Positions 2,969-59,455 of a stretch of DNA of 64,000 nucleotides are shown in pieces. The position numbers were made by a program, and so were the translations under genes. Under the pieces are notes generated by a model, which saw only the letters and a list, made by a program, of their open reading frames with translations, ran no database searches and was not told where the DNA came from. The stretch covers positions 124,001 to 188,000 of the forward strand of contig JAKAXB010000004.1 of the NCBI GenBank assembly GCA_021816765.1, written 5' to 3'. Source of the DNA: Natronospirales bacterium (GTDB taxonomy: Bacteria; Pseudomonadota; Gammaproteobacteria; Natronospirales; REEB76). How positions within the stretch are numbered: the stretch's first letter is position 1; each line of letters starts with the position of its first letter.

Positions 2969-2994
2969 GGCATACCTCCGTCATTTTTGTAAAC

Positions 2995-3029
2995 AAACCC
3001 AGGTAGGCGTATGTCCTGCCTGGGTTTTT
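2995..3029 (+). terminator. Rho-independent terminator of ssb
   Basis: Arms AAACCCAGGTAGG and CCTGCCTGGGTTT flank a 7-base loop (one G-T wobble), and the right arm runs into a T tract. It lies 27 bp after the ssb stop. Confidence 0.85.
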
Positions 3030-3466
3030 GCTTGTTAACACTGCGGGCGCCATCAAGCAGGGTTCCCGGCAAGTGGATACCTGAATTATTTTGACAACAA
3101 CTGGGGAGACACCGGCGGCCGGTTTGGGTGAAAACAGCAACCGTCGGATTCTCGCCGCCCTCATTCCATGAAGCGTTGTCCTCTCAATCCTCCGTGAGAC
3201 GTTCCTTATGCAGTATTCCCCCACTCCGCCCAACAGTGGGTTTGGGTAGCGTCCCGACACAGGAACGTGCGCTCGGCATGCCCCCAGTCCCGCTGCCGCT
3301 GGACGATATAAACCGGTCCGGAAGCGGGGATGCGTGCGTTGCTGCCGGGCAGAAACACCAAGGTCTACTGGCACCACGTGCGCTGCTCCCCAGCACCTTG
3401 CGGGCATCCTTCGTGCGAAGGAGTGCGTGGACGTGGAGTGATGGTGCCAGAGGGCCTGGCTTTTTA
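3030..3466. other. Intergenic, no gene recognised
   Basis: An open frame runs from 3128 into the nucleotidyltransferase gene, but its upstream part (3128-3496) shows no recognisable domain, and the operator and -10 box at 3467-3504 place the real gene start later. I treat it as non-coding. Confidence 0.5.
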
Positions 3467-3504
3467 ATACCCAAATTGGGGTATATAATACCCAAAATGG
3501 GTAT
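3467..3504 (+). promoter_or_regulatory. Tandem palindromic operator with embedded TATAAT
   Basis: Two copies of ATACCC-N5/6-GGGTAT lie at 3467-3484 and 3488-3504. A perfect TATAAT -10 hexamer spans 3484-3489 between them. The ATG at 3497 lies inside the second palindrome, about 7 bases past the -10 box, so the transcript may start at the AUG itself. No good -35 box is seen. The winged-helix domain of the encoded protein is the obvious candidate binder. Confidence 0.6.
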
Positions 3505-4126
3505 TAAGAATCAACCAATGACTGGCGCTGCGCAAACCCGCTCCGGGATTGCAGACGCCCTGTTTACCAAGGTGCAACAGCGAGTACTGGCTATCGTATA
3601 TGGGAACTCCGGTAGGTCTTTTTATGCGAACGAGATTATCGCCCTCGCAGGTTCCGGTACGGGTGCGGTCCAGAGGGAATTGGGCCGTCTTGAGGCGGCA
3701 GGTCTCGTTATTCTCACGCGCATCGGTAACCAGAAGCACTACCAGGCTAATGCGTCGGCACCGGTGTTTGTGGAATTGCGCGGCCTGGTCCTGAAAACTT
3801 GCGGTCTGGCGGATATTTTACGCGCAGCGCTGGCACCGCTGGCCGGTCAAATCATCACCGCATTCGTTTACGGCTCGGTCGCTAAGGGCGAGGATACAGC
3901 GAAAAGTGACATCGATCTGATGGTGCTAAGCCATACGCTGTCGTACGCTGACTTATATGCTGTTCTAGAAGGGGCGACGAATCAGCTAGGGCGGACTGCC
4001 AACCCGACCTTGTATAAGCCCCAGGAACTCGAAAAACGTGTTAAAGAGGGCAACGCCTTCATCCAGCGAGTCTTGACACAACCGAAACTTTGGTTGATGG
4101 GAGACGAACATGAGCTCGCCGTTTGA
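3497..4126 (+). CDS. Winged-helix / nucleotidyltransferase (MNT-type) protein
   Basis: 209 residues from ATG 3497; ATG 3518 is an alternative. Residues about 20-90 form a winged helix-turn-helix (ANEIIALAGSGTGAVQREL, then a GLV-LTRIGNQKHY wing). Residues 123-145 hold the pol-beta-type nucleotidyltransferase signature: YGSVAKG, then SDIDLMV with Asp138 and Asp140 as metal ligands. In MNT/HEPN systems the MNT partner can nucleotidylate the HEPN toxin. The extra DNA-binding domain suggests it also represses its promoter. It overlaps the HEPN-like gene by 17 bp. Confidence 0.8.
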   Translation: MGIKNQPMTGAAQTRSGIADALFTKVQQRVLAIVYGNSGRSFYANEIIALAGSGTGAVQRELGRLEAAGLVILTRIGNQKHYQANASAPVFVELRGLVLKTCGLADILRAALAPLAGQIITAFVYGSVAKGEDTAKSDIDLMVLSHTLSYADLYAVLEGATNQLGRTANPTLYKPQELEKRVKEGNAFIQRVLTQPKLWLMGDEHELAV

Positions 4127-4532
4127 AAACCTAAGCGGACCCGGCAAACCCCTGCGCAAAGAGGCTGCGGATGCAAAAGAATTCCAAGGGCTAAAGCGTT
4201 CCGGTCTCGCGCGCTTACCCGATGCGGCGAATCCCGCCAATTCACTGGAGAGCCGATTCGATCTTGCCTACAACGCGGCGCATGCGTTGTGTTTGGCGGC
4301 GTTACGTTGGCATGGCTACCGGCCTGAGCATCGGTATATTGTTTTTCAAGTGCTTCCCCATACGCTTGGGTTGGGGCCGGAGGTGTGGCGCGTCCTGGAT
4401 AAATGCCACAACATCCGCAATCAGGGAGAGTATGAGGGCGACCTGAATGTGGACGATCAACTTGTCACAGACCTGATCAGCGCCTGCCGCGCAGTAGCAA
4501 CTAAGGTGAATGCTCTTAAACCTCCAGGGTGA
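4110..4532 (+). CDS. HEPN-like protein, partner of the nucleotidyltransferase
   Basis: 140 residues, mostly helical. RFDLAYNAAHALCLAAL (49-65) and the HNIRNQGEYEGD segment (100-111) resemble HEPN-type four-helix proteins that pair with MNT nucleotidyltransferases. The R-x4-6-H ribonuclease motif of active HEPN toxins is absent: Arg103-Asn104 is present but no His follows. It may belong to an R-N subfamily, be inactive, or act another way. The 17-bp overlap with the upstream gene supports one operon. TA function is inferred. Confidence 0.6.
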   Translation: MSSPFENLSGPGKPLRKEAADAKEFQGLKRSGLARLPDAANPANSLESRFDLAYNAAHALCLAALRWHGYRPEHRYIVFQVLPHTLGLGPEVWRVLDKCHNIRNQGEYEGDLNVDDQLVTDLISACRAVATKVNALKPPG

Positions 4533-5242
4533 AGCATTTCGTTCGATGGCAACGAAGAGACCAGCAATGAAACACGGGAAAGCCAAGATCACTTGGGACG
4601 AACTGCTTGAATCAAAGTATTCCCAATAGGTGCCACGATCGGGTTGACGCAGGCTCGGCAAACCCGGGCGCTTGAGGAAAAATTTGAGCGGCTTTTGGTC
4701 GCGCCGCATAGACGACACCCAACCCGGGCCGGCGGCGTTCACCGAAACCTTCAAACCGCACCGCAAGCTACTGCGCGGCGGCGACGGCCTGTCGGTGGAG
4801 GAATTCCTCACCCAGCCCGTCGGGCACTGGCAGCGGCCAAGAGTGCTTTGCCGGCTCCGCCGGGGGCTGGACCGGGTGTGTGAAAGCGGGCCTACGGGTC
4901 CGAGGTCTGTTTTTCATGAACCCGGTCCCGTAAAATCCGTTCCGGCGCCGGGGCCAGAACCTCCAGGGGCTGCAAACGGCAAGTCCAGGCCCGTCACGCG
5001 CCCGCAATAGCCGGCGCGGTTAAGTGAGGTAAGGCTGAGGCCTCCCCAGCGTGTCGGAAACGGCGGGGCTGTTGCCCGGGCGGGTTCGTGTGCACCGGGC
5101 TGGCGATGCACGTTACTCTGCCTAACTGACTGGGAATGAAATGTATGAACGGAACTCGCCGTGCTTTGCATTGCCGTCCCAGCCGCAACTTCCGTGTGAC
5201 GGCCCGGCTCCCGGACCATTTCAAGTCAAGGATTATTTTCCA
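4533..5242. other. Intergenic, possible gene debris
   Basis: No supported gene. A tiny frame at 4567-4629 (begins MKHGKAKITWDELLES) resembles the start of a small antitoxin-like protein but stops after 20 codons. An open frame over 4672-5010 is not recognisable. The stretch may contain the promoter of the Wzz-like gene, but I see no clear -10/-35 pair. Confidence 0.4.
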
Positions 5243-6523
5243 ATGAATACGGAATCCCAGCCCCCCAAGAAAACCGATCTGCAGAATCCAAGCCCCTCCC
5301 CGATGGTTCCACAAGCCGGCATGCCCCAGCCGCCCTGGATGCCGGGCTACCCACCGAACGAGGAAATTGATCTCGTGGATCTCGGCGTCATGCTCTGGCG
5401 TCGGCGCCGGCTGATGGCATGGGTGGCCGGAGTGCTGATTGCATTGGCCTTGCTGCTCGCGATTTTCAAGAAGCCGGCGTACGACTATACCGTCAGCATC
5501 CAGTTGGGTTCCATGTTGGCCCAGGATGGTACTTTGGCGCCGCTCATGTCGCCGCAGTCCGCCGCCGGGACATTGCAGAACACCTATATCCCCAATGCCA
5601 CCTACCAGTACGAAGCGCAGCAGCACGTCAGCCTGCGTGCGCTGAAGATCAACGTGGGCTCGCACAGCGACAGCACCACCGTCACGCTCACCTGCAAGGT
5701 CTCCGGCAAGCTGAGCGCGGCGTGCATGGCGGTGGAAAAGGCCGCGGCCGGAAATTTCGTCAGGGACAATGCCCGGGCCATGGCCGCCGTGCGTGCCAGC
5801 CTCAAGGAGAAGGTGGATGCCGCCAAACTGAATCTGGTGGCCCTGCAGGACCCCACCGTATTCGGTGTGCAGAAACTCGCGGCGGAAAAGGCTATCGCAG
5901 ATGCCCGGAACGCCCTCGCCAACCTGCAGGCCAGTACCACGGTGCTCAAGGTCCGCCAGAGCAAACTCCATGCCTCCGTGAGTCTCTACCGGAAAGAGGC
6001 CGCGCAGTTGCAGACCCACATTACCGACGTGCGCAAGGCCGCCATGGGTGCCGCCCAGGGGACGGCCAGTCCCACCGAAGCCATGGCCAATCTGATCCTC
6101 AGCACCGAAGAGCAGCGCAGCGTGGACCTCTACAACACGATCCAGCACAAGCTCGCGGTCACGCTCCCGGAGCAGTCGGCCACCGTAGACAAGGACTTGG
6201 CCGACAACGCCCGTGCCCAGACCTTGCAGAAACAGGTGATCGCGCAGAATCAGTTAGCGCTGCAGAAGTTGCTCTTCGACCACGGCCAGCAGATCCAGAA
6301 CCAGCAGATCCGCATCGGCAATCTGCAGTCCCAGCTCAGTAACATCCAGGACAACCGCGTGCTGGGAGATCCGCTGCGCTCGTTCGTGCCAGTAGGCCTC
6401 GGCCGCGCCGCCATCCTTGCCATCGGCATCGTATTGAGTGTCTTTATCGCTTTAATCGCCGCGCTGTTTGCCGGATATGTAGAGCAGGTACGCGCGCGCC
6501 TGGCTGCCGCGAAAAACACCTGA
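5243..6523 (+). CDS. Wzz-like polysaccharide chain-length determinant / co-polymerase
   Basis: 426 residues from ATG 5243, preceded by AAGGA; the open frame extends upstream without support. A Pro-rich cytoplasmic N-terminus (1-50) leads to TM1 (about 57-75), then a long periplasmic domain rich in coiled coil (about 175-370), then TM2 (about 389-411). This two-TM hairpin is the polysaccharide co-polymerase (PCP) topology that sets the length of Wzy-made polymers. No cytoplasmic tyrosine-kinase domain follows, so it is PCP-1-like rather than Wzc-like. It lies 8 kb upstream of the Wzx/Wzy genes, separated by cys genes and repeats. Confidence 0.75.
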   Translation: MNTESQPPKKTDLQNPSPSPMVPQAGMPQPPWMPGYPPNEEIDLVDLGVMLWRRRRLMAWVAGVLIALALLLAIFKKPAYDYTVSIQLGSMLAQDGTLAPLMSPQSAAGTLQNTYIPNATYQYEAQQHVSLRALKINVGSHSDSTTVTLTCKVSGKLSAACMAVEKAAAGNFVRDNARAMAAVRASLKEKVDAAKLNLVALQDPTVFGVQKLAAEKAIADARNALANLQASTTVLKVRQSKLHASVSLYRKEAAQLQTHITDVRKAAMGAAQGTASPTEAMANLILSTEEQRSVDLYNTIQHKLAVTLPEQSATVDKDLADNARAQTLQKQVIAQNQLALQKLLFDHGQQIQNQQIRIGNLQSQLSNIQDNRVLGDPLRSFVPVGLGRAAILAIGIVLSVFIALIAALFAGYVEQVRARLAAAKNT

Positions 6524-7599: not shown

Positions 7600-9522
7600 A
7601 TGGCAGATCAGCCGCAACTGGTCCGCAGCGACATCCAGGCCTTCCTGGCACGGGACAGGCGCAAGGAACTGCTGCGCTTCATTACCTGCGGCAGCGTGGA
7701 CGACGGCAAGAGCACGCTCATGGGCAGGTTGCTGCATGACACCAATATGATCTTCGAAGACCAGTTGGCGGCACTCCAATCGGACAGCCGCAAGCACGGC
7801 ACCACGGGCGACGATATGGATCTGGCCCTGCTCATGGATGGGCTGCAGTCCGAGCGGGAGCAGGGCATCACAATTGATGTCGCCTACCGCTATTTTTCCA
7901 CGGAAAAGCGCAAATTCATCATCGCGGACACGCCGGGCCACGAACAGTACACCCGCAACATGGCCACCGGCGCTTCCACCGCCGATCTGGCGGTGATTCT
8001 GGTGGATGCGCGCAAGGGCGTGCTCACCCAGACCCGGCGGCACAGTTTCATCGTCTCCCTGCTGGGCATCCGCCACGCCATCATCGCCGTCAACAAGATG
8101 GATACGGTGGAGTACGCGCGCAAGGTATTCGAGGAAATCTGCGCCGATTACAGGGCGCTGGCCGCCTCGCTCGACCTGCCGGACCTCCGTTTCGTGCCGG
8201 TGTCCGCGCTCAAGGGCGACAACGTCGTGCACCGCGGCGCGGCCATGCCCTGGTATCAGGGCGAGACCCTGCTCGAGATGCTGGAAACCGTCGAGGTTGC
8301 AGAGGACATCAATTTCCGGGATCTGCGTTTGCCGGTGCAATACGTGAACCGGCCGAACCAGGACTTCCGCGGCTTTTGCGGCACCCTCGCCGCCGGCGTG
8401 CTGCGCAAGGGCGATAGCGTCATGGCGCTGCCGTCGCGCAAGTCCAGCCGGGTCAGCGCCATCGTCACCTATGACGGCGAGCTGGAGACGGCGTTCGCTC
8501 CCATGGCGGTGACGGTCACGCTGGCGGATGAAATTGACATCAGCCGCGGCGACATCCTGGTGCACGGCGACCGGGCGCCGCACGTGGGCACCAGTCTGGA
8601 CGCGTGGCTCATCTGGATGGCGGAGGCGCCGATGCTGCCGGGCAAGCAGTACCTGTTCAAACTGGCCGCAAAAACCGCCAACGGCGTGATCCAGACAATT
8701 CATCACAGCGTGGACGTCAACACGCTGGAGCAGCGCCCCGCCGCGGAACTGGGACTGAACCAGATCGCCCGGTGCCGGGTGGTCTTGAGCGAGCCGCTGG
8801 CGTTTGACCCGTATGCCGTCTCGCGCGTCACCGGCGGTTTTATCGTCATTGACCGCCTCACGAACGCCACCGTCGGCGCCGGCATGGTGACGCGCACCCT
8901 TACCCCGCCTAGGGAGGATCGTGCACAGAATGTGGTATGGCACGAACACAAGGTCAACAAGACCATGCGCGCCAATCAAAAGGGCCAGCATCCCTGCGTG
9001 CTCTGGCTGACCGGCCTTTCCGGTTCCGGCAAATCCACCATCGCCAACGCACTGGAACAGCGGCTGTTCCTGGAAGGCTACCATTCCTATCTGCTGGACG
9101 GCGACAACGTGCGCCACGGACTCAACAGGGATCTGGGATTCAGCGACGAGGCCCGCGTGGAAAATATCCGCCGCATCGGTGAGGCGGCGAGACTGTTCAC
9201 GGATGCCGGCCTGATCGTGATTACCGCGTTCATTTCACCCTTTCGCGCCGACCGGCACCTGGTGCGGGAGCTTATCCCGCAGGGCGAATTCATCGAGGTG
9301 TTCCTGGATACGCCGATCGAGGTTTGCGAGCAGCGCGACCCCAAAGGCCTGTACCGCAAGGCGCGCGCCGGGCAAATCCGCAATTTCACCGGCATTGATG
9401 CGCCCTACGAACCGCCGCAATCCCCCGAATTGGTGCTGCATACCGCGGAGGACGATGTGGCGGAATGCGTGGATCAGGTGTTGTCGTACATGCGGCGCAA
9501 CAGCATGCTGAAACATACCTGA
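7600..9522 (+). CDS. cysNC: Bifunctional sulfate adenylyltransferase subunit 1 / APS kinase
   Basis: 640 residues from ATG 7600; an upstream extension of the frame overlaps cysD and is not needed. Residues 1 to about 450 are an EF-Tu-like GTPase: GSVDDGKST (31-39), DTPGHEQY and NKMD. Residues about 455-640 are a CysC APS kinase: GLSGSGKST (472-480), [17 protein letters not shown], and a C-terminal GIDAPYEPP. The fusion turns ATP and sulfate into PAPS, the donor for sulfotransferases, one of which is encoded at 21150. A REP-like unit begins just after the stop. Confidence 0.96.
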
Positions 9523-9596
9523 ATCCCGGTGGGAGCGGCGGTCCCCACCGCGATGGGGTTTCGGTAGGAGCGGTGACATTCACCGCGATGGATTTC

Positions 9597-10188
9597 GTAG
9601 GAGCGGCGACATTCGCCGCGATTGAAATCTGGTCGCGGTGTGTGACACCGCTCCTACCAAAAAAGACCTGCTAATTCATCGTGGGAGCAGCTTCGCCGCG
9701 ATGGGGTTGCGGGTGGGAGCGGCGCTATTCGTCGTGATGATTGGGGTTTGGGATTTCGTAGGAGCGGCGACATTCGCCGCGATTGAAATCTGGTCGCGGT
9801 GTGTGACACCGCTCCTACCAAAAAAGACCTGCTAATTCATCGTGAGAGCAGCTTCGCCGCGATGGGGTTGCGGGTGGGAGCCGCGCTATTCGTCGTGATG
9901 ATTGGGGTTTGGGATTTCGCAGGAGCGGCGACATTCGCCGCGATTGAAATCTGGTCGCGGTGTGTGACACCGCTCCTACCAAAAAAGACCTGCTAATTCA
10001 TCGTGGGAGCAGCTTCGCCGCGATGGGGTTGCGGGTGGGAGCCGCGCTATTCGTCGTGATGATTGGGGTTTGGGATTTCGTAGGAGCGGCGACATTCGCC
10101 GCGATTGAAATCTGGTCGCGGTGTGTGACACCGCTCCTACCAAAAAAGACCTGCTGATTCATCGTGGGAGCAGCTTCGCCGCGATGGA
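9597..10188 (+). repeat. 161-bp tandem repeat array (about 3.7 copies)
   Basis: Copies start at 9597, 9758, 9919 and 10080, each beginning G(T/C)AGGAGCGGCGACATTCG and differing by only a few bases; the last is cut at about 10188. Each unit holds a 61-bp module with 10-bp inverted ends (GTAGGAGCGG and CCGCTCCTAC), then a second REP-like palindrome (GTGGGAGCAGCTTCGCCGCGAT) and a GTGGGAGC-GCGCTATTCGTCGTGAT one. A diverged partial unit lies at 9529-9596 and REP-like debris continues to about 10270. The unit also creates repeated 65-codon frames that I do not regard as genes. Confidence 0.9.
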
Positions 10189-10400
10189 TTTCCAGGAATC
10201 GCGGCCGGGACCTGTCTGCGTGCACCGCACAGGCAGGCGACCGCTCCTACAATGGATTTTGGATTTCGCAGGATACCGGCGGGAATGAAAAACTCTGACG
10301 ACAATCGGCAGGAACGGCTGTTCAGGCGCTCGGCACCATACCCAAGATATGCGGCGGCATGCCGCGAGGCTGGCGTTGTCCGGTACGCCCAGACATCAAG

Positions 10401-10526
10401 ACGGTGGTGTCCGTGAGTTCGCCCCGCGTCGCAGAGATGACCAGGCTGCTGGAGAACGTCCATCGTGTGGTGAACAGTGATCTGGTCAATGAAATGTCAA
10501 TCATTACCAACCGCATGGGCATAGAC
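10401..10526 (+). pseudogene. Fragment of a WbpA-type nucleotide-sugar dehydrogenase
   Basis: The translated stretch TVVSVSSPRVAEMTRLLEN and the following SDLVNEMSIITNRMGID match the mid-region of UDP-GlcNAc/UDP-ManNAc 6-dehydrogenases, just before the catalytic Cys region. Neither the N-terminal Rossmann domain nor the C-terminal domain is present: about 42 of some 430 residues survive. It differs from the intact dehydrogenase at 51221, so it is not a recent partial copy of that gene. It marks a decayed sugar-nucleotide gene in the 9.5-14 kb scrap zone. Confidence 0.75.
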
Positions 10527-10550
10527 AATAGAAATCAATCTGAGCTTCCC

Positions 10551-10829
10551 TCAGGCGGCGATCTTCTTCACCTTCGGCAACGGTTTCTGCTCCGCAGACC
10601 ACAGATCGCAGGCAGCCTGCATATTCAGCCACATCTCGGGGCTCGTGCCGAGCGCCTGCGACAAGCGTAGCGCCATTTCCGCGCTCACACCGGCATGACC
10701 ATTCAGGAGTGCGGAGAGCGCTTGGCGGGTGACACCCAGGTGCTCTGCCGCCTCGGTAACCGTCATGCCCTCCGGTAGGTACTCACGCAGCACCTCGCCA
10801 GGGTGCGCCGGATTGTGTATGCGAGACAT
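10551..10829 (-). CDS. higA: HigA-type antitoxin (XRE family)
   Basis: 92 residues starting MSRIHNPAHPGEVLREYLPE, the HigA/VapI signature, followed by a helix-turn-helix (TEAAEHLGVTRQALSALLNG, residues 25-44) and the family's SPEMWLNMQAACDLW block. It should bind the operon promoter and, in a working system, neutralise HigB. Its usual toxin gene lies directly upstream but is broken (10847-11132), so this is probably an orphan antitoxin. AGGAGG-like sequence (TACCTCCT on the plus strand at 10834-10841) gives a strong ribosome binding site. Confidence 0.9.
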   Translation of the reverse strand: MSRIHNPAHPGEVLREYLPEGMTVTEAAEHLGVTRQALSALLNGHAGVSAEMALRLSQALGTSPEMWLNMQAACDLWSAEQKPLPKVKKIAA

Positions 10830-10846
10830 GATTTACCTCCTCACGC

Positions 10847-11132
10847 TCAGTGATAGTCCACGTAATCCACATCCACAGCGTCCGTGCCTTCAAACCGGAA
10901 CACCAGGCGCCAGTTGCCGTTGACTGTGATTGCGAAGCAGCCGCGCAAATCACCGATGAGAGCGTGCAGCCGCCAGCCCGGCGCGTTCATGTCTTTGAAA
11001 CTACGTGCCTGCTCCAGCGTGGTCAGTTGCAGCCGTAACTTGCCGGCCTGATGAGGCTGGATGCCCCGCTTTGAGCCGGTCTGGAAGAAGCTCTCCAGCC
11101 CCTAGCCCCTTGTGCCGGAAGTTCTTGATCAG
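10847..11132 (-). pseudogene. higB: Broken HigB toxin gene
   Basis: The minus strand reads LIKNFRHKGL, then after a frame change GLESFFQTGSKRGIQPHQ, KLRLQLTTLEQARSFKDM, NAPGWRLHALIGDLRGC and finally RFEGTDAVDVDYVDYH before TGA: a nearly full HigB/RelE-type mRNA interferase. Two faults are seen. A 7-base near-duplication at 11096-11109 (TAGCCCC after CAGCCCC on the plus strand) shifts the frame and puts a TAG in the downstream frame. The codon where ATG is expected is CTG. No ATG lies upstream in frame. Loss of function is inferred. Confidence 0.8.
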
Positions 11133-11583
11133 GAACAAAAGTTGTAAAGCGTCGCTTGACGCTAGTCAACCGGCCTGCCAGCCAAGGTCCTTCGGGCAAC
11201 GTTGCCCATACCACCGGTTTCGCCGGTCCGCGGCTTGGCCTGCCGTGAGGGTGACTTCAGGCGTGCCCTGACGGTACACGCAGAACAGGATTCCGCCTAC
11301 ACCTGGCGCGTGACTTGCAGCCGGCCGGCTGACCCAGTAACCAGAAATCAACCGGATTTTCCGGATACCCTGGAAATCGGTCATGGACGCGGGATTTATC
11401 GGTAACGTCAGCAAAGTACGAATATATGGCTTTTGCGATGTGCGAGTGGCGCGACCCGCAGGGGCTTCCTCTCTGGGATTCGGATGGGGAGTAAATAATG
11501 GGTGGGAGCGGTGGTCCCCGTCGTGATTGTTGGGAACCTCAGCAGACCGTCATTGCATCAGTGCTATACCCGGTGTTACATTG
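11133..11583. other. Intergenic, no gene recognised
   Basis: No frame with recognisable protein content. The stretch holds the first of two 37-bp direct repeats flanking the VapBC pair (11455-11491) and a REP-like piece (GTGGGAGCGGTGG, 11501-11530). Confidence 0.5.
11455..11491 (+). repeat. 37-bp direct repeat, left copy flanking vapBC
   Basis: Begins CCCGCAGGGGCTTCCTCTCT and continues GGGATTCGGATGGGGAG. It matches 12317-12353 with three differences. Both copies run into REP-like sequence. The pair brackets the antitoxin/toxin genes at 11609-12270. Confidence 0.7.
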
Positions 11584-11602
11584 ATCCCGTGTAGCACGGG
11601 AT
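11584..11602. promoter_or_regulatory. Inverted repeat, putative VapB operator
   Basis: ATCCCGTG and CACGGGAT are perfect 8-bp arms around TAG, ending 6 bp before the antitoxin ATG. Ribbon-helix-helix antitoxins bind such repeats to repress their operon. Confidence 0.55.
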
Positions 11603-11608
11603 TAAGTC

Positions 11609-11842
11609 ATGAGCAACCTGACCATCACTATTGAAGAGGACGTCCTTAAACGGGCACGCCTGCGTGCGCTCGAACAGGGCACCTCGGTGAATAGCATTTT
11701 GCGACAGTACCTTGAGGGTTATGCAGGTGCCCGGGATGAACGGCAGGCAGCCGTACGGGATTTACTCGATCTGTCGCAATCCAGCGGCGCGCGTGCGCAG
11801 CGTCACTGGACACGTGACGAGCTGCATGAGCGCCGGCGCTGA
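11609..11842 (+). CDS. Ribbon-helix-helix antitoxin (VapB-like)
   Basis: 77 residues. MSNLTITIEEDVLKRARLRA followed by LEQGTSVNSILRQYLEGYA is a ribbon-helix-helix (CopG/Arc-type) domain over residues 1-42. The charged C-terminal half (DLLDLSQ, then HWTRDELHERRR) is the likely toxin-binding tail. Its stop codon overlaps the start of the PIN toxin gene by one base. A perfect 8-bp inverted repeat lies just upstream. The pairing is inferred from coupling. Confidence 0.82.
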   Translation: MSNLTITIEEDVLKRARLRALEQGTSVNSILRQYLEGYAGARDERQAAVRDLLDLSQSSGARAQRHWTRDELHERRR

Positions 11843-12270
11843 TGTCGGCTTTCTTCGACACAAATGTCCTGGTCTATCTCTTTGATGATTCCGAACCGCG
11901 GAAAAAGACGGCGGCTCAGCAGTTACTGGAAACAGAAGTGGCATCCGGGAATGCGGTGATCAGCACGCAGGTGCTGCAGGAATTCTATGTGGCCGTTACC
12001 CGGAAGCTGGCCGAACCGCTGCCCCTGGATGTGGCCGAACGGGCACTGCGCAATCTGGCGGCACTACCGGTTCAGGCGGTAGATACGCACTTGATCATGG
12101 CGGCAGTGCGCCGTAACCGGACTGATGCGATGTCATTCTGGGATGCATTGATTGTGGAGGCGGCGTTAAGTTCGGGCGCTCAACGGTTATACAGCGAGGA
12201 CTTGCAGGATGGCCGTGAAATCGGCGGGCTGCGCATCGAAAACCCGTTCAAAGAACAGGCAGCACGCTGA
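11842..12270 (+). CDS. PIN-domain toxin (VapC-like)
   Basis: 142 residues with the PIN acidic residues in order: Asp6 in FFDTNVLVY, Glu47 in TQVLQEFYV, Asp101 in FWDALIVEAAL, and the final YSEDLQDG (Asp120). Such proteins are Mg2+-dependent endoribonucleases, often cutting tRNA or rRNA. It is translationally coupled to the RHH antitoxin. The pair is bracketed by 37-bp direct repeats, which could reflect the way it inserted. Confidence 0.87.
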   Translation: MSAFFDTNVLVYLFDDSEPRKKTAAQQLLETEVASGNAVISTQVLQEFYVAVTRKLAEPLPLDVAERALRNLAALPVQAVDTHLIMAAVRRNRTDAMSFWDALIVEAALSSGAQRLYSEDLQDGREIGGLRIENPFKEQAAR

Positions 12271-12316
12271 TCCATTCCGGTTCGCCGGCCGTGCACATGA
12301 AGTGGTTCGCAGGCTG

Positions 12317-12353
12317 CCCGCAGAGGCTTCCTCCCTGGGATTCGGATAGGGAG
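12317..12353 (+). repeat. 37-bp direct repeat, right copy flanking vapBC
   Basis: Begins CCCGCAGAGGCTTCCTCCCT; three differences from 11455-11491. It lies 47 bp past the toxin stop and runs into REP-like repeats. Confidence 0.7.
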
Positions 12354-12640
12354 AAATTAGGAGCGGCGATGCCCGCCAGGGGTGAGCGGCGATAGCCGCG
12401 AACGGGCAGGCAGGAAGCGGAGCTTGAATGGCGGAAATACAGATTTTGCAGGAGCAAAAATCTGCCTCGCCGCGATGGATTTCGTAGGAGCGACGACATT
12501 CGCCGCGATGGGTTTTCAAGAATCGTGGTCGAGTTGCTCCCGGCACCCTGCCTCCTCCCCCGTCGGGACTTCCAAGGGTCGCGCACACTTGTACCTCCCT
12601 GTACATCGTACGACCGCTCCCACAAAGACAATATGCGGCC
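12354..12640 (+). repeat. REP-like repeat cluster
   Basis: Several units of the window's REP family lie here, including GTAGGAGCGACGACATTCGC at about 12485. A segment near 12586-12622 (CACTTGTACCTCCCTGTACA and neighbours) occurs inverted at 57097-57145. No gene is evident. Confidence 0.65.
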
Positions 12641-12697
12641 AGCGGAGACGCCGGGCTGTTGAACTGTTCAGGATTGACCCGTAAGTCAGAAATCAAT

Positions 12698-12720
12698 AGA
12701 ATCAGACTGTATCTGATTCT
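12698..12720. promoter_or_regulatory. Inverted repeat, putative antitoxin operator
   Basis: AGAATCAGA and TCTGATTCT are perfect 9-bp arms around CTGTA. Its position 16 bp before the TTG at 12737 argues that the antitoxin starts there rather than at the earlier in-frame TTG (12659). Confidence 0.6.
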
Positions 12721-12736
12721 TCGCATTTCCAGGGAA

Positions 12737-13015
12737 TTGAAGATAAAAACCATCACCGCCACAGAACTGGCCCGCAACCTCAGCCGGGTGCTGGATCGGC
12801 TGGCGGCCAGGGGTGAAGCAATCATCGTGGAGCGCAATCACCGGCAGGTGGCGCGGATTATTCCGGAGCATACGTATCAAACCGCCCTGGAAGCGATGGG
12901 CGACCTGTATCGGACGCTGCCCGATGAAGCGGCCGTCGGTTGGCTGGCGGACGGTCGGACTCAACTGGCTCAAGACGGCACGGTGGCAAGCGTCAGGAAT
13001 CCATGGGCTACCTGA
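12737..13015 (+). CDS. Phd/YefM-like antitoxin
   Basis: 92 residues from TTG 12737, chosen because KIKTITATELARNLSRVLDR is the normal family start and a perfect inverted repeat lies just upstream; the frame itself opens earlier. The IIVERNHRQVARIIP strand is typical Phd/YefM. The C-terminal tail (LPDEAAVGWLADGRTQL) would bind the toxin. It overlaps the PIN gene by 13 bp. The ribosome binding site is poor (AGGG directly before TTG), so expression may be low. Confidence 0.72.
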   Translation: MKIKTITATELARNLSRVLDRLAARGEAIIVERNHRQVARIIPEHTYQTALEAMGDLYRTLPDEAAVGWLADGRTQLAQDGTVASVRNPWAT

Positions 13016-13422
13016 TTGACACCTGCATCTGGGTGGAGGTGGAACGTGGGGCGTGGGCGCACGCCGATGTCATGTCGATGACCGGGGATGCGCCGGTGTT
13101 TCTCTCCCCCGTAAGCATCGCGGAGCTGTATTTCAGTGCGGAAATTGCCCGCGAGGCCGGCATTCGTCAAAAACGCCTTGTGGCCTTGCAGCGGCTCCAG
13201 CGCAAACCCATGCTGACGATAGATGGGGAGACCGGAGTGATTTTCGGCAGGCTGGCAGCCGCGATTAAGGCGGCGGGTAGAAGTCATCGCTACCGGGTGC
13301 AGGATTTGTGGCTCGCGTGCCAGGCTATCCAGCATGGGTTCCGTTTCCTGACACGCAACGAACGCGACTTCACTGATATTCCCGGGTTGGATCTCGTGGT
13401 CATGCCTTCGGCAACTGCCTGA
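13003..13422 (+). CDS. PIN-domain toxin (VapC-like)
   Basis: 139 residues from ATG 13003. Asp6 in YLIDTCIWVEVERG, Glu41 in SIAELYFSAE, Asp101 in VQDLWLACQA and the RNERDFTDIPGL end make a complete PIN active site of the VapC/FitB type. Overlap with the Phd-like gene indicates coupled translation. Sequence remnants of rmlB begin 80 bp downstream. Confidence 0.87.
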   Translation: MGYLIDTCIWVEVERGAWAHADVMSMTGDAPVFLSPVSIAELYFSAEIAREAGIRQKRLVALQRLQRKPMLTIDGETGVIFGRLAAAIKAAGRSHRYRVQDLWLACQAIQHGFRFLTRNERDFTDIPGLDLVVMPSATA

Positions 13423-13500
13423 TAAGCCGGTGCCTTATCCGCACATTCGGGTATTGAGAACAACACGATCGCAAGGACGATGCACCAAAACCCGCGCCGC

Positions 13501-13656
13501 AGAATTTATGGTTTGAACATCACCATTAGCAACTGCTCCAACAACTACGGACCCTATCAGTTCCCGGAGAAGCTCATCCCCCTGTGCATCGTCAATTTGC
13601 TGAATGGCAAGCCATTGCCCATCTATGGCGATGGCAAGAACATCCGCGACTGGCTG
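13501..13656 (+). pseudogene. rmlB: Internal fragment of dTDP-glucose 4,6-dehydratase
   Basis: The translation [20 protein letters not shown] continuing [19 protein letters not shown] and [11 protein letters not shown] is an unmistakable RmlB segment (about 52 residues of some 350). It is cut at both ends: no Rossmann start and no YxxxK site precede it, and it runs into REP-like sequence after DWL. It lies 365 bp upstream of intact rmlA, the normal neighbour, so an rml operon was probably truncated here. No intact rmlB is in the window. Confidence 0.88.
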
Positions 13657-14020
13657 GTGCGGGCAAGGTTACAATACCCGGCAAAATCATCGGCAGGTAC
13701 GGTCGTCGCGATAGGGTTTCGGGTAGGAGCAGTCTCGCCGCGATAGGATTTCCAAGAATCGCGCCCGGGACGGCCGCTCCCACGAGAGAGATGTGAATGG
13801 GCGGCGATATTCGCGCGATAATGTGGGATCTCGGTAGGAGCGGCGCGCGGTGCCCGCTCCCGAACGCAGGACAGTCGCGGCGAAAGGAATTCACGTCGCT
13901 GGGATGAGGGAACGGAACGACCCTTGGAAGTCCCGGACGTGGGACGCCGGGACCGTACTGTCCATAACCGAGTCCCGCGACGCTATCGCGGGTCTGAAAC
14001 ACTGTCAGGGATTTGGGATC
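13657..14020 (+). repeat. REP-like repeats between the rmlB fragment and rmlA
   Basis: Units GTAGGAGCAGTCTCGCCGCGAT (in two parts, about 13724-13745), GGGCGGCGATATTCGCGCGAT (about 13799) and GTAGGAGCGGCGCGCGGTGC (about 13834) recur. The GAATCGCGCCCGGGA tail seen elsewhere is also here. No gene is recognised; the promoter of rmlA may lie in the last 100 bp. Confidence 0.6.
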
Positions 14021-34302: not shown

Positions 34303-34348
34303 GCCGCATCCCAAGACTGCACATCAAGATATTCAGTTGCTAGCTAAA

Positions 34349-34390
34349 CGAGTGCGACTCCGCCAGGATAGCGGAGGTGCTCGGGGTTTT
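34349..34390 (+). terminator. Hairpin before the first ligase gene, possible terminator
   Basis: CTCCGC and GCGGAG close a 7-base loop; the stem can be extended by CGAG/CTCG with small bulges, and GGGGTTTT follows. It lies 47 bp after the dehydratase stop, so it may end the Wzx/Wzy-type operon. The T tract is short, so confidence is moderate. Confidence 0.5.
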
Positions 34391-34398
34391 GACCGTGA

Positions 34399-35193
34399 AA
34401 GGAGCAGGCGTGTCCGCGGATAATTCTCCCGTTGCTTCGCCGGCATCCGGACTGTTGCGCTACGCGGTCATGGTGCTGGTATTGGCGTTCCCGTCCGTCT
34501 GCCTGCTGGTGAACCGGGGCGACAGTATCGGCCTCGGCCTGCTTGCCTTACTTGGATTCTGGGTGGGGTTCCGGGAGGGGTTTGCCCGCACCCTGAAGCG
34601 GGAAGATGGGTATGTGGCGCTGGCCTTTTTCGCCTTCTTTGTGGTGGCCGTGCTGTCTTACGAATTCGGCCAGGCGACCTATGACGGCTTCCGCTTCCTG
34701 GGCCGGGACCTGCGTTTTCTGCTCATCGTGCCGGTATTGGTACTGTTCCGCCGCTATCCGCCGCCGGCCAAAATCGTGTTCATCGGACTTGCCATCGGCG
34801 GGCTGCTGACAGGCGCTTATTCCCTGGTGGAATTCCTGCACGCGCCGGCCGCCTACCGTGCCCAGGCGGAGACGGATCTGCCGATCATGTTCGGTGATCT
34901 CACCGCAAGCATTGTGCTAATGCTGGCAGCGGCCTACGGGCTGGTGGTGTCAGCCCGGAAACTATGGCTGACGGCGGGGTATCTTTTCTGCCTGCTTTTG
35001 GGACTCACCGCCGTCATCCTGTCCGGCACCCGCGGGGCGTGGGTGGCGCTTCTGCTGTTGCTGCCGCTGCTGTTCGGGCTGCTCGGCCGGGTGACGCACA
35101 AGCGATATCTGGCGCTGATCGTGGTTTCCCTGTTGGTGCTGTTTGCAGGAGCGTTAGCGATTTCCAGAACGGATGTGCGCAGCCGCCTGAGCC
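34399..35193 (+). repeat. 795-bp direct repeat, copy A (5' part of ligase gene)
   Basis: Nearly identical to 55285-56079 (offset 20886). I count about 17 differences, only two of them in the last 290 bp. Similarity begins at the AAGGAG ribosome binding site and ends abruptly at the codons after CGCCTGAGC. It spans residues 1-261 of the ligase, the first membrane half. Confidence 0.92.
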
Positions 35194-36167
35194 GGGTTAT
35201 CGAAGGGATTTCACTCTACCAAACTGCTTTGCGCTCGCTACCCCTGGACCGGGGAAATAACATCCAGGATGTACCGTTCTGCGACGACCAGAGTCAGTTC
35301 CTGCAAGGCTGGTTAACCCTCAGTGGGCAAGACGGTGGCGATATTCTTACAGCTAAAATCGTGCGGGATCCCGCACTGAGTGCTGACAGACACTTGGATG
35401 TTATGTGTCATAACGGCTATGTTATTCGCATTTGGAATTCTGGAAAATTGAACGGTCGACTTGTCTTCGAGAGAATGGTGAACGGAGTCCATGCGCCTCA
35501 GGTCACACGCTTAGTCGTGAAGGGTGTTGGTATAGTATTTTTGTCTGACAAAGATGCTCAGACAGTGCATGTTGATATACAGAATTATCATATGCTTGTA
35601 TTGCATGGTCCTCCTAATTCCGGGTGGGGGTTATCTGTGATTGTGACGCCAGGCCAGACATTGTGGCTGGTACCCGTGGAAAGCTACTTTGGCGAGTACC
35701 GCTATACATTGATGAATACGTCAGTGGGCCAGCGCTTCGAGATGTGGCGGGCGGCCTGGCATATGTTTTTGGATCATCCCGTGCTGGGTATCGGTACCGG
35801 AGCATTTTATGAGGACGCGCAGCAGATGGCGCACCGCGGTTTGATCGCTCCTCCGGCCGCGCAGTATGACCATCCCCACAGCGACTATTTCGATGCCCTG
35901 TCGAGCCGCGGAATACTGGGATTGCTGGCGTTGTTCGCATTGCTGGGGGTTCCGGCAATCTACTTCGTGCGTGCCGTGAAAAGCGGCGACGAAACTTCCC
36001 ATGCCGTGGGACTGGCGGGGTTGCTGCTGGTATGCGGGTTCGCCATTTTCGGCCTGACCGACACCGTCTTTATCCATTCCATGAACATCAGTTGGTATGT
36101 GATCTATATTGCCCTGTTCATGGCGCTGCTGAAACCGGATAGTGCAAAAGTGGCTTCAGCGAAGTGA
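34410..36167 (+). CDS. O-antigen ligase / polymerase (WaaL/Wzy_C family), paralogue 1
   Basis: 585 residues from GTG 34410, chosen because AAGGAGCAGGC precedes it and the paralogue at 55296 starts identically. About eight N-terminal membrane segments (to residue 255) are followed by a large soluble, presumably periplasmic loop (about 265-435). The Wzy_C/WaaL motif then reads GQRFEMWRAAWHMFLDHPVL, GIGTGAFY and HPHSDYFDALSSRGILGL, followed by more membrane helices. Enzymes of this family join undecaprenyl-linked glycan to an acceptor. Its loop differs strongly from that of paralogue 2, suggesting a different acceptor or glycan. Confidence 0.87.
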   Translation: MSADNSPVASPASGLLRYAVMVLVLAFPSVCLLVNRGDSIGLGLLALLGFWVGFREGFARTLKREDGYVALAFFAFFVVAVLSYEFGQATYDGFRFLGRDLRFLLIVPVLVLFRRYPPPAKIVFIGLAIGGLLTGAYSLVEFLHAPAAYRAQAETDLPIMFGDLTASIVLMLAAAYGLVVSARKLWLTAGYLFCLLLGLTAVILSGTRGAWVALLLLLPLLFGLLGRVTHKRYLALIVVSLLVLFAGALAISRTDVRSRLSRVIEGISLYQTALRSLPLDRGNNIQDVPFCDDQSQFLQGWLTLSGQDGGDILTAKIVRDPALSADRHLDVMCHNGYVIRIWNSGKLNGRLVFERMVNGVHAPQVTRLVVKGVGIVFLSDKDAQTVHVDIQNYHMLVLHGPPNSGWGLSVIVTPGQTLWLVPVESYFGEYRYTLMNTSVGQRFEMWRAAWHMFLDHPVLGIGTGAFYEDAQQMAHRGLIAPPAAQYDHPHSDYFDALSSRGILGLLALFALLGVPAIYFVRAVKSGDETSHAVGLAGLLLVCGFAIFGLTDTVFIHSMNISWYVIYIALFMALLKPDSAKVASAK

Positions 36168-36360
36168 TTGGGCTCCAGGTATTCTTGCGGGGCGACGGTC
36201 TCGATTGTGATGGGAGCGGCGATATTCGCCGCGATGGATTTCGTAGGAGCGGCGACATTCGCCGCGACTGAAATCTGGTCGCGGTGTATGACACCGCTCC
36301 TACGAAACCACAAACCCAGACCATCACGGTGGAAATCGCCGCTTCTACCATAAAAACCTG
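36168..36360 (+). repeat. REP-like repeats after ligase paralogue 1
   Basis: 36243-36303 is almost the same 61-bp module as in the 161-bp array (compare 9597-9657), with ends GTAGGAGCGG and CCGCTCCTAC. A further unit (GGGAGCGGCGATATTCGCCG) precedes it. The other ligase paralogue is also followed by such repeats. Confidence 0.8.
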
Positions 36361-55284: not shown

Positions 55285-56079
55285 AAGGAGCAGGCGTGTC
55301 CGCGGATAATTCTCCCGTTGTTTCGCCGGCATCCGGACTGTTGCGCTACGCGGTCATCGTGCTGGTGCTGGCGTTCCCGTCCGTCTGCCTGCTGGTGAAC
55401 CGGGGCGACAGCATCGGCCTCGGCCTGCTTGCCTTACTTGGATTCTGGGTGGGGTTCCGGGAGGGGTTTGCCCGCACCCTGAAACGGGAAGATGGGTATG
55501 TGGCGCTGGCCTTTTTCGCCTTCTTTGTGGTGGCCGTGCTCTCTTACGAATTCGGCCAGGCGACCTATGACGGCTTCCGCTTCTTGGGCCGGGACCTGCG
55601 TTTTCTGCTCATCGTGCCGGTATTGGTACTGTTCCGCCGCCATCCGCCGCCGGCCAAAGCCGTGTTCATCGGGCTTGCCATCGGCGGGCTGCTGACGGGC
55701 GCTTATTCCCTGGTGGAATTCCTGCACGCGCCGGCCGCGTACCGTGCCCAGGCGGAGACGGATCTGCCGATCATGTTCGGTGATCTCACCGCAAGCATTG
55801 TGCTAATGCTGGCAGCGGCCTACGGGCTGGTGGTATCAGCCCGGAAACTATGGCTGACGGCGGGGTATCTTTTCTGCCTGCTTTTGGGACTCACCGCCGT
55901 CATCCTGTCCGGCACCCGCGGGGCGTGGGTGGCGCTTCTGCTGTTGCTGCCGCTGCTGTTCGGGCTGCTCGGCCGGGTGACGCACAAGCGATATCTGGCG
56001 CTGATCGTGGTTTCCCTGTTGGTGCTGTTTGCAGGAGCGTTAGCGATTTCCAGAACCGATGTGCGCAGCCGCCTGAGCC
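55285..56079 (+). repeat. 795-bp direct repeat, copy B (5' part of ligase gene)
   Basis: The second copy of the block at 34399-35193, in the same orientation. The two copies bracket about 20 kb (35194-55284) holding the ABC exporter, methyltransferases, glycosyltransferases and the second initiating transferase. Confidence 0.92.
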
Positions 56080-57053
56080 ACGTTGTTGGACAAATTGCTC
56101 TCTACCGGACGGCGCTTCGCACCTTGCCATCTGACTGGAAAGACAATGCCAGGGATCTTCCTTTCTGCAACGACCAGCGTCATTTCCTCGGAGGTTGGCT
56201 GTCCTTTAACCAGCAAGGCGGTCCGGGGGAAATTGCAGCTCACGTTGTACCCGACCCCATGTTAATCAAGACAAAGTTGTCGGATATCAAGTGTCAGGAT
56301 GGTTACGCCCTGCATATTACCAATAACGGCAAAGGGAGCGGCTGGACCGGATTTCCCAGAACAGTGATGCACACTCATTCACCTCAAGTTACGCATCTCA
56401 TCGTGCGCGGGAACGGCATAGTATTTTTGTACGGAAGAGGCGCGCAACAAATAAACATCAATACCCGACACTATCGCATATATACACTGCACGGTCCCGC
56501 TGGATCCGGACAGTCGGTAATTGCCGAATTGGTGCCGGGCCAATCCTTATGGCTGGTTCCTGTGGATGGCTATTATGGTGAATATCGCTATACATTGGTG
56601 AGCACTTCTATAGGGCAGCGCTTCGAGATGTGGCGAGCCGCCTGGCATATGTTTTTGGAACATCCCGTGCTGGGTATCGGTACCGGGGCATTTTATAAGG
56701 ACACACAGCAGATGGCGCACCGGGGTTTGATCGCTCCTCCGGCCGCGCAATTCGATCATCCCCACAGCGATTATTTCGATGCCCTGTCGGGCCGCGGAGT
56801 AGCGGGCCTCGTGGCCTTGCTGGCTCTGTTCCTGGTTCCGGCCGCTTATTTCCTGCGTGCCGTGAAAAACCCGGGGGACATGTCCCATGCCGTGGGCTTG
56901 GCCGGCTTGCTGCTGGTATGCGGGTTTGCCGTTTTCGGTTTGACCGACACCGTTTTTATCCATTCCATGAACATCAGTTGGTATGTGATCTATATTGCCC
57001 TGTTCATGGCGCTGCTCAAACCAGGCAGTGCAAAAGCAGAGGGGGTGAAATGA
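55296..57053 (+). CDS. O-antigen ligase / polymerase (WaaL/Wzy_C family), paralogue 2
   Basis: 585 residues from GTG 55296, with AAGGAG upstream. Same length and topology as paralogue 1 (34410). By eye residues 1-261 differ at only about five positions. The loop (about 265-435) is strongly diverged, sharing mostly scattered residues such as LPFC-DQ, PQVT and GIVFL. Similarity returns from GQRFEMWRAAWHMFLEHPVL and HPHSDYFDALSGRG to the end, at lower identity than the first part. The swapped loop could define the glycan or acceptor served. REP-like repeats follow, as after paralogue 1. Confidence 0.87.
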   Translation: MSADNSPVVSPASGLLRYAVIVLVLAFPSVCLLVNRGDSIGLGLLALLGFWVGFREGFARTLKREDGYVALAFFAFFVVAVLSYEFGQATYDGFRFLGRDLRFLLIVPVLVLFRRHPPPAKAVFIGLAIGGLLTGAYSLVEFLHAPAAYRAQAETDLPIMFGDLTASIVLMLAAAYGLVVSARKLWLTAGYLFCLLLGLTAVILSGTRGAWVALLLLLPLLFGLLGRVTHKRYLALIVVSLLVLFAGALAISRTDVRSRLSHVVGQIALYRTALRTLPSDWKDNARDLPFCNDQRHFLGGWLSFNQQGGPGEIAAHVVPDPMLIKTKLSDIKCQDGYALHITNNGKGSGWTGFPRTVMHTHSPQVTHLIVRGNGIVFLYGRGAQQININTRHYRIYTLHGPAGSGQSVIAELVPGQSLWLVPVDGYYGEYRYTLVSTSIGQRFEMWRAAWHMFLEHPVLGIGTGAFYKDTQQMAHRGLIAPPAAQFDHPHSDYFDALSGRGVAGLVALLALFLVPAAYFLRAVKNPGDMSHAVGLAGLLLVCGFAVFGLTDTVFIHSMNISWYVIYIALFMALLKPGSAKAEGVK

Positions 57054-58096: not shown

Positions 58097-59455
58097 ATGC
58101 CCGGCAAACTTCACATCAAGACCTTCGGCTGCCAGATGAACGAGTACGACTCGGCGAAAATGGCCGAGGTGCTCGGGATGTCGCACGGTATGCAGCTCAC
58201 CGGACAGGCCGAAGAGGCGGACGTGATTCTGCTCAACACCTGTTCGGTGCGCGAGAAAGCGCAGGAGAAGGTGTTCTCGCAATTGGGCCGGTGGCGCGAG
58301 CTCAAGCAGCGCAATCCCGATCTCGTCATCGGCGTGGGCGGCTGCGTGGCGAGCCAGGAGGGCGCCGGTATCGTGAAGCGCGCGCCGTTCGTGGATATGG
58401 TGTTCGGACCGCAGACGCTGCACCGCCTGCCGGACATGCTGGCGGAAACGCGCCGCAGCCGTTTGCCGGTGGTGGACGTGTCCTTCCCGGAGATCGAGAA
58501 GTTCGACAATCTGCCGCCGGCACGGGCGCAGGGCGCGACCGCCTTCGTGTCCATCATGGAAGGCTGCAGCAAGTACTGCACGTTCTGCGTGGTGCCCTAC
58601 ACCCGCGGCGAGGAAGTGAGCCGGCCCTTCGACGATGTGATCGCCGAGATCGCGGAACTCGCCGGGCAGGGCGTGAAGGAGGTGACGCTCCTCGGCCAGA
58701 ACGTGAACGGCTACCGCGGCCGGATGCACGACGGCGCAGTGGCGGATCTGGCGCTGCTCATCGAGTACGTGGCGGCCGTGGACGGTATCGAGCGCATCCG
58801 CTTCACCACCTCCCATCCGCTGGAATTCTCCGAACGGCTGATCCGCGCCTACGCCGAGGTACCCATGCTCGCCAATTACCTGCACCTGCCGGTGCAGAGC
58901 GGCTCGGACCGCATCCTCGCCGCCATGAAACGCAACCACACGGTGCTGGAGTACAAGGCCCGGATCCGCAGGCTGCGGGAGGTGCGTCCCGACATCAGCC
59001 TGTCCACCGACATCATCGTGGGTTTTCCGGGAGAGACGGCCAAGGATTTCGAGGACACCCTGAAGCTGGTGGAGGACGTACGCTTCGATCAGGCCTTCAG
59101 CTTTATCTATAGCCGCCGTCCCGGCACGCCGTCGTCGTCGTTCCACGACGATGTGCCGCATGAAGAGAAAGTGCGCCGCCTGGAAACCGTGCAGGCGTAC
59201 ATCTACGAATTCGGTCAGGATTACATGCGGCGCCTGCAGGGCACCGTGCAGCGGGTGCTGGTGGAGCGGCTCTCCACCCGGAATCCGCGTGAGCTCGCCG
59301 GCAGAACCGAGTGCAACCGCTGGGTGAATTTCGCCGGCGATGCGTGCCTCATCGGCCGCTTCGCCGACGTGGCGATCACCGAGGTGAAACAGAATTCCCT
59401 GCGCGGGCGGCTGGTTCGGGAAAAAATACCTGCTTTTTTCAGTGCCGATGCCTAA
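58097..59455 (+). CDS. miaB: tRNA-2-methylthio-N6-isopentenyladenosine37 methylthiotransferase
   Basis: 452 residues from ATG 58097 ([19 protein letters not shown]); ATG 58085 is an in-frame alternative. The N-terminal cluster cysteines are in [17 protein letters not shown] and [11 protein letters not shown]. The radical-SAM CxxxCxxC is in [19 protein letters not shown]-terminal TRAM domain (about 385-446) has VQRVLVER and [13 protein letters not shown]. It adds the methylthio group to i6A37 of tRNAs. In many gammaproteobacteria phoH, ybeY and corC follow directly; here two TA pairs intervene. Confidence 0.97.

Follow-up and report, generated by a model that had tools for sequence, protein, structure and literature searches.

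A probable REPIN-type cluster amplified in tandem downstream of cysNC in a Natronospirales bacterium

Architecture of the tandem array

The non-coding DNA downstream of cysNC in the Natronospirales bacterium (assembly GCA_021816765.1) harbors a 598-bp tandem array which is likely a cluster of the REPIN/BIME type, composed of GTAG-tagged REPs and amplified in tandem. The array lies at positions 9590-10187 of the 64,000-nucleotide stretch analysed (contig JAKAXB010000004.1, positions 124,001 to 188,000; hereafter the window) and was delimited by Tandem Repeats Finder (TRF; period: 161; 3.7 copies; 98% matches; 0 indels; score: 1168), by comparison of the sequence with itself at an offset of 161 and by block differences. 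At this offset the base match is near-perfect from 9590 to the end of the last copy near 10187. The three full copies differ at 2/161 positions in each pairing (1/2, 2/3 and 1/3), while the match of the fourth copy, which starts at 10080, is lost past unit position 108. The first-pass annotation, made from the sequence alone, had placed nearly four copies with very few differences at 9597-10188, and both the copies and, to within a few bases, their bounds are real.

On reading the sequence, each unit was found to comprise four REPs, three forward and one reversed. The first (forward, GTAG...CGCGA) and the second (of the same type, reversed, unit positions 37-61) form a 61-bp head-to-head dimer, or REPIN, the first copy of which (9597-9657) was recognized from the sequence, the offset comparison, the REP scan and the hairpin fold, with further copies at 9758-9818, 9919-9979 and 10080-10140. 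It is followed by the spacer CAAAAAAGACCTGCTAATTCATC (9658-9680 in copy 1), a similar form of which is common to two sibling species, and by a third, forward REP, GTGGGAGCAGCTTCGCCGCGATGG (9681-9704, + strand), which repeats at +161, +322 and +483 and is caught in 3/4 copies by a REP scan allowing one substitution. The REPIN, spacer and third REP constitute a block of ~108 bp, here termed H. The remaining 53 bp, block X (9705-9757, + strand; repeated at 9866-9918 and 10027-10079), hold the fourth REP, also forward (9713-9737), and a linker ending in GGGATTTC. Copies of H are 1-2/108 bases apart and those of X 0-1/53, the second and third X being identical and the first differing by one base. 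As the last copy ends after the third REP, the array reads H-X-H-X-H-X-H.

The REPs show the GT(A/G)G head by which GTAG REPs are defined in the available sections of PMC2817692, followed by a GC-rich imperfect palindrome (e.g. GTAGGAGCGGCGACATTCGCCGCGA), with a GCAG head in one array copy. The dimers likewise have the features of REPINs, namely two inverted REPs with a short spacer that form one hairpin and recur, similar dimers being found at 36243 and on contigs C31 and C40. Furthermore, the TRF, offset and block comparisons agree with the definition of an ordered tandem REPIN cluster in the accessible text of PMC3116915. The 10-base ends of the 61-bp module at 9597-9657 are exact reverse complements, as first described, and the single copy reported at 36243-36303 is present, with differences at 2/61 positions. 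The true inversion is, however, longer than those ends, the single copy having 30-nt arms of 87% complementarity (36239-36268 and 36278-36307).

Additional REPs flank the array. One, detected by the REP scan at 9529-9553 (+ strand), begins shortly past the stop codon of cysNC, which ends at 9522, while another of the GTAG type (9564-9588, + strand) is located directly to the left of the array and is followed by TGGATTTC, as is also the case at 36210-36242. At the right edge, the last block-H REP runs into a second, different REP dimer (10164-10252).

Predicted folding of the unit

When folded as RNA, the first unit is more stable than all of 200 dinucleotide shuffles (200/200; z: -4.23), and as DNA 2/200 shuffles fold equally well (z: -3.02). 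The REPIN dimer is predicted to form one long hairpin as RNA, while in the lowest-energy fold of single-stranded DNA its two REPs form separate predicted hairpins. A structured RNA family was sought in Rfam with positions 9000-14000 at E <= 1, and none of the 11 matches obtained reached its gathering score. Ten are to MIR (microRNA precursor) families and one to a worm snoRNA, with the best at 31 vs 64 bits, and these are read as chance matches to hairpins. Within 9000-11000, a single terminator-like site was found, outside the array (1.9 expected), and promoter-like sites numbered 0 (0.9 expected), so that neither an intrinsic terminator nor a promoter is recognized in the array.

Genomic setting

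The cysNC product carries GTPase and APS-kinase domains (Pfam). On the other side of the array and facing cysNC is higA (10551-10829; TIGR02607), which places the REP cluster between convergent genes. More REP-like sites and toxin-antitoxin genes continue to about 13.8 kb. The toxin-antitoxin-type genes found among REPs at 10551-13422 include, in addition to that for HigA, a PIN-domain gene and a Phd/YefM-type gene adjoining a second PIN-domain gene. Beyond these, an 88-amino acid frame (13480-13746), by eye a piece of a dTDP-glucose dehydratase, continues into REP sequence, and a nucleotidyltransferase-like gene lies downstream.

Full-length cysNC was found in 1/11 genomes of the genus, that of the window itself, with matches of 51-54% identity to the APS-kinase part in four others. 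As such, the array site has no comparable counterpart among the 11 genus genomes searched. A cysNC search of named genomes returned 80 loci from other taxa, with best-segment identities of up to 64%, and these were left out of the site comparison.

Other repeats were observed in the window. A direct duplication of ~1.5 kb (34399-35947 and 55285-56833) has its copies 20,886 bases apart, and the two ends differ in identity (97% and 83%, each over 300 bases). A stretch of 70 bases at 34316-34385 is 79% identical to 58108-58177 and by eye resembles the beginning of a MiaB-type gene, so that the stretch at 34316 may be a gene fragment.

Dispersal of the REP family

The one-substitution scan, which catches 12/15 of the array REPs counted by eye, identified 36 REP-like sites in the window, against a mean of 6.46 and a maximum of 13 in 100 first-order Markov sequences. 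A scan allowing two substitutions was set aside as too noisy to serve as evidence (52 sites vs 14-31 in 20 Markov sequences). A genome-wide search with the pattern GGAGCGG-N4..14-CCGCGAT yielded 27 matches, among them the four array copies and at least one (on C21) with an unusually long middle that may not be a REP, while the reversed pattern has none. The family is thus dispersed, with an extragenic position checked around 9529-10252 and on C31. This dispersal is modest, since more than 100 copies per genome are called usual for GTAG REPs in the sections available of PMC2817692.

The building blocks of the array recur elsewhere in the window. A single dispersed copy (36210-36307) comprises a REP (36210-36234) and the REPIN at 36243-36303. 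The REP and REPIN at 36210-36310 share 91/101 bases with 9564-9664, and a REP-linker-REPIN arrangement is found inverted at 36239-36349 (81/111 bases identical). A search of six REP-bearing loci for block X found nothing at E 1e-4, and an ancestral H-X-H arrangement is therefore not seen among them.

A second tandem REPIN array is located on contig C31 of the same genome (66978-67227; positions 2979-3228 of locus L151), with a period of 80, 3.1 copies and 85% matches by TRF. Made of a REPIN with a short spacer, this array is more diverged than the 161-bp one and lies between facing open frames (2111-2956 on the + and 3335-5404 on the - strand of L151). The same second REP dimer adjoins both arrays (10174-10250 vs C31; 87% over 77 bases).

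The pattern is matched in 11/11 genomes of the genus, with counts ranging from one (G006 and G009, where the single matches may be by chance) to 89 (G003). With the 161-bp unit as query, 9/56 genomes were matched. All nine are among the 11 genus genomes, and the 45 others gave no match. The CAAAAAAGACCTGCTAATTCATC spacer pattern occurs three times in the array's own genome (the fourth array spacer, with one base changed, being missed), twice in G008, once in G010 and in none of the other eight genus genomes. The claim that the array is built from composite modules of the REP type is thus borne out, the modules being dispersed across both genome and genus.

Y1 transposases and the RAYT link

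A search for a REP-associated transposase (RAYT), proposed in the first-pass annotation, gave a mixed result. The genome contains two Y1_Tnp matches, one of which (L001) is an intact Y1 transposase of 282 amino acids that exceeds the NCBI RAYT cut-off (NF047646; 87.5 bits; cut-off: 80), but neither gene is flanked by REPs. The intact gene has inverted GGGGTCAGGTC ends; its 3.3-kb locus is free of REP-like sites, and the surrounding 19 kb contain one weak site, under the Markov mean of 2.58. The second match is partial (family positions 44-118 of 121), in a locus of about 3 kb with one GGGGTCAGGTC-type end and no REP-like sites, and two weak sites are found in the 12 kb around it (Markov mean: 1.32). 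A candidate RAYT remnant on C12 of the same genome (36% over 47 residues; E: 0.008) was discarded, as it is part of a same-strand open frame of 530 amino acids which by eye resembles a purine-synthesis enzyme. A REP-flanked RAYT was therefore not found in this draft of 47 contigs (99.12% complete).

Within the genus, RAYTs flanked by REPs could be identified. Contig C9 of the sibling G008 encodes a 175-amino acid RAYT (NF047646; 130.7 bits; cut-off: 80) amid REPs of the array's family, with the same REP-spacer composite as that of the array located 38 bases from the gene. Its two closest homologs (50% identity in G002 and 49% in G010) are likewise flanked by REPs, with related REPs on C165 of G010 and variant REPs on C81 of G002. 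The array module thus fits a RAYT-mobilised family, which appears to have a RAYT within the genus whose cleavage and movement of these REPs is putative. Y1_Tnp loci number 21 in 7/11 genus genomes, some shortened by contig ends; REP-like sites number 6, 13 and 3 at the three with close RAYTs, and none (13 loci) or one (five loci) at the other 18. REP counts do not follow the presence of a RAYT: G003 and G005 have 89 and 68 pattern matches and no close RAYT homolog, while G008, with its RAYT, has only eight. By TRF, the REP clusters beside the RAYTs of G008 and G010 hold no tandem array.

In both of these siblings, the 3′ end of a gene which by eye encodes an NtrC/PilR regulator recurs as a duplicate after the gene (L096, G010 C378, 1-2643, 91% over 362 bases; L155, G008 C9, 5021-7491, 94% over 339 bases). 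A toxin-antitoxin pair, again recognized by eye, lies between gene and duplicate, with REPs nearby, and the locus resembles an insertion that restores the gene end.

With no cognate REP-flanked RAYT found in the array's own genome, mobilisation here can be proposed from the siblings. The cognate enzyme may have been lost, may fall in a gap of the draft, or its role may be served by the other transposase of the genome.

Origin of the array

The H-X-H-X-H-X-H layout, together with the near-identity of the copies, fits amplification by recombination or slippage. Relatives and the literature suggest that RAYT-mobilised REP-spacer composites landed between cysNC and the facing higA, which would have left two direct copies of H (REPIN, spacer and REP) around X (REP and linker). 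Unequal recombination or replication slippage between these ~108-bp copies could then have expanded H-X-H into H-X-H-X-H-X-H, perhaps aided by the hairpins, and a few base differences now mark the copies. Most likely, the array is not itself autonomous. The initial interpretation, which spoke of active recombination or slippage, is thus partly supported: amplification agrees with the near-identity and the layout, while the word "active" finds no support in the one strain compared.

It is very unlikely that a RAYT made the tandem copies directly, via a circular or single-stranded REP intermediate, rather than general recombination or slippage. The available portion of PMC3733652 reports a model in which complex REP arrays form through a circular intermediate, and an intact Y1 transposase above the RAYT cut-off is present in the genome; this enzyme, however, has GGGGTCAGGTC ends and REP-poor surroundings, while the period of the array spans two more REPs and a linker, as homologous exchange between composites would yield. 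There is, in turn, a small chance that the copy number is partly an artefact of assembly, the array being longer or shorter in the cell, as a 598-bp array in a draft may exceed short-read length. Against this, base differences distinguish the copies, and unique flanks are found on both sides within one contig of 209,555 bases.

It likewise seems unlikely that selection keeps the array between the cysDNC operon and the facing toxin-antitoxin genes for stabilisation of mRNA 3′ ends, for termination or for protein binding. The position of the first REP right after the end of cysNC, the location between convergent genes and the strong predicted RNA hairpin of the unit would suit such a role, as would the reported ability of BIMEs to bind gyrase and IHF and of REPs to help in Rho-dependent termination (PMC2817692, sections available), but the array holds neither an intrinsic-terminator nor a promoter pattern and the region no Rfam family at gathering score. 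If the 3′ end of the cysDNC mRNA is affected at all, this is probably a by-product of the REP hairpins.

Amplification by recombination or slippage after the landing of mobile composites remains the preferred reading. A broader and rather doubtful extension is that REPIN arrays keep growing by ordinary recombination after loss of the cognate RAYT, and that array length could tune read-through between cysDNC, an operon for sulfate assimilation, and a toxin-antitoxin pair. If this were so, two adjacent composites would suffice to turn orphan mobile repeats into a length-variable array where convergent genes end.

Comparison with known systems

Arrays of this kind are well documented in other bacteria, and the present one is thus an ordinary, if tidy, case that leaves existing knowledge of REPs unchanged. 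It clearly illustrates how two direct copies may give rise to a compound REPIN cluster, and its length could be used as a marker given more sequenced strains. Tandem REPIN clusters with flanking DNA have already been published (PMC3116915 and PMC3733652, in the sections available), including 16 ordered clusters in Pseudomonas fluorescens SBW25 (PMC3116915). From the SBW25 clusters, as far as they are described there, the array differs in its REP sequence, in the two extra REPs of its unit and in a genome in which no REP-flanked RAYT was found. The transposase L001 resembles the TIRYT proteins in the available text of PMC3733652, its inverted GGGGTCAGGTC ends fitting the GGGGWSAS motif, but differs in that it also passes the NCBI RAYT cut-off, and no link between it and the array is seen. 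The BIME-2 elements of Escherichia coli consist of several units in tandem repeat (PMC2817692, in part), and the array shares with these and with atypical BIMEs the tandem units with oppositely oriented REPs, while its REP sequence is another and its unit has three REPs in one direction and one in the other rather than alternating. The GTAG REPs of PMC3733652, within the portion available, share with those of the array the GTAG/GTGG tag, the imperfect palindrome and the head-to-head dimers, and their clusters, like the array, consist of dimers tandemly reiterated with flanking DNA downstream of a gene.
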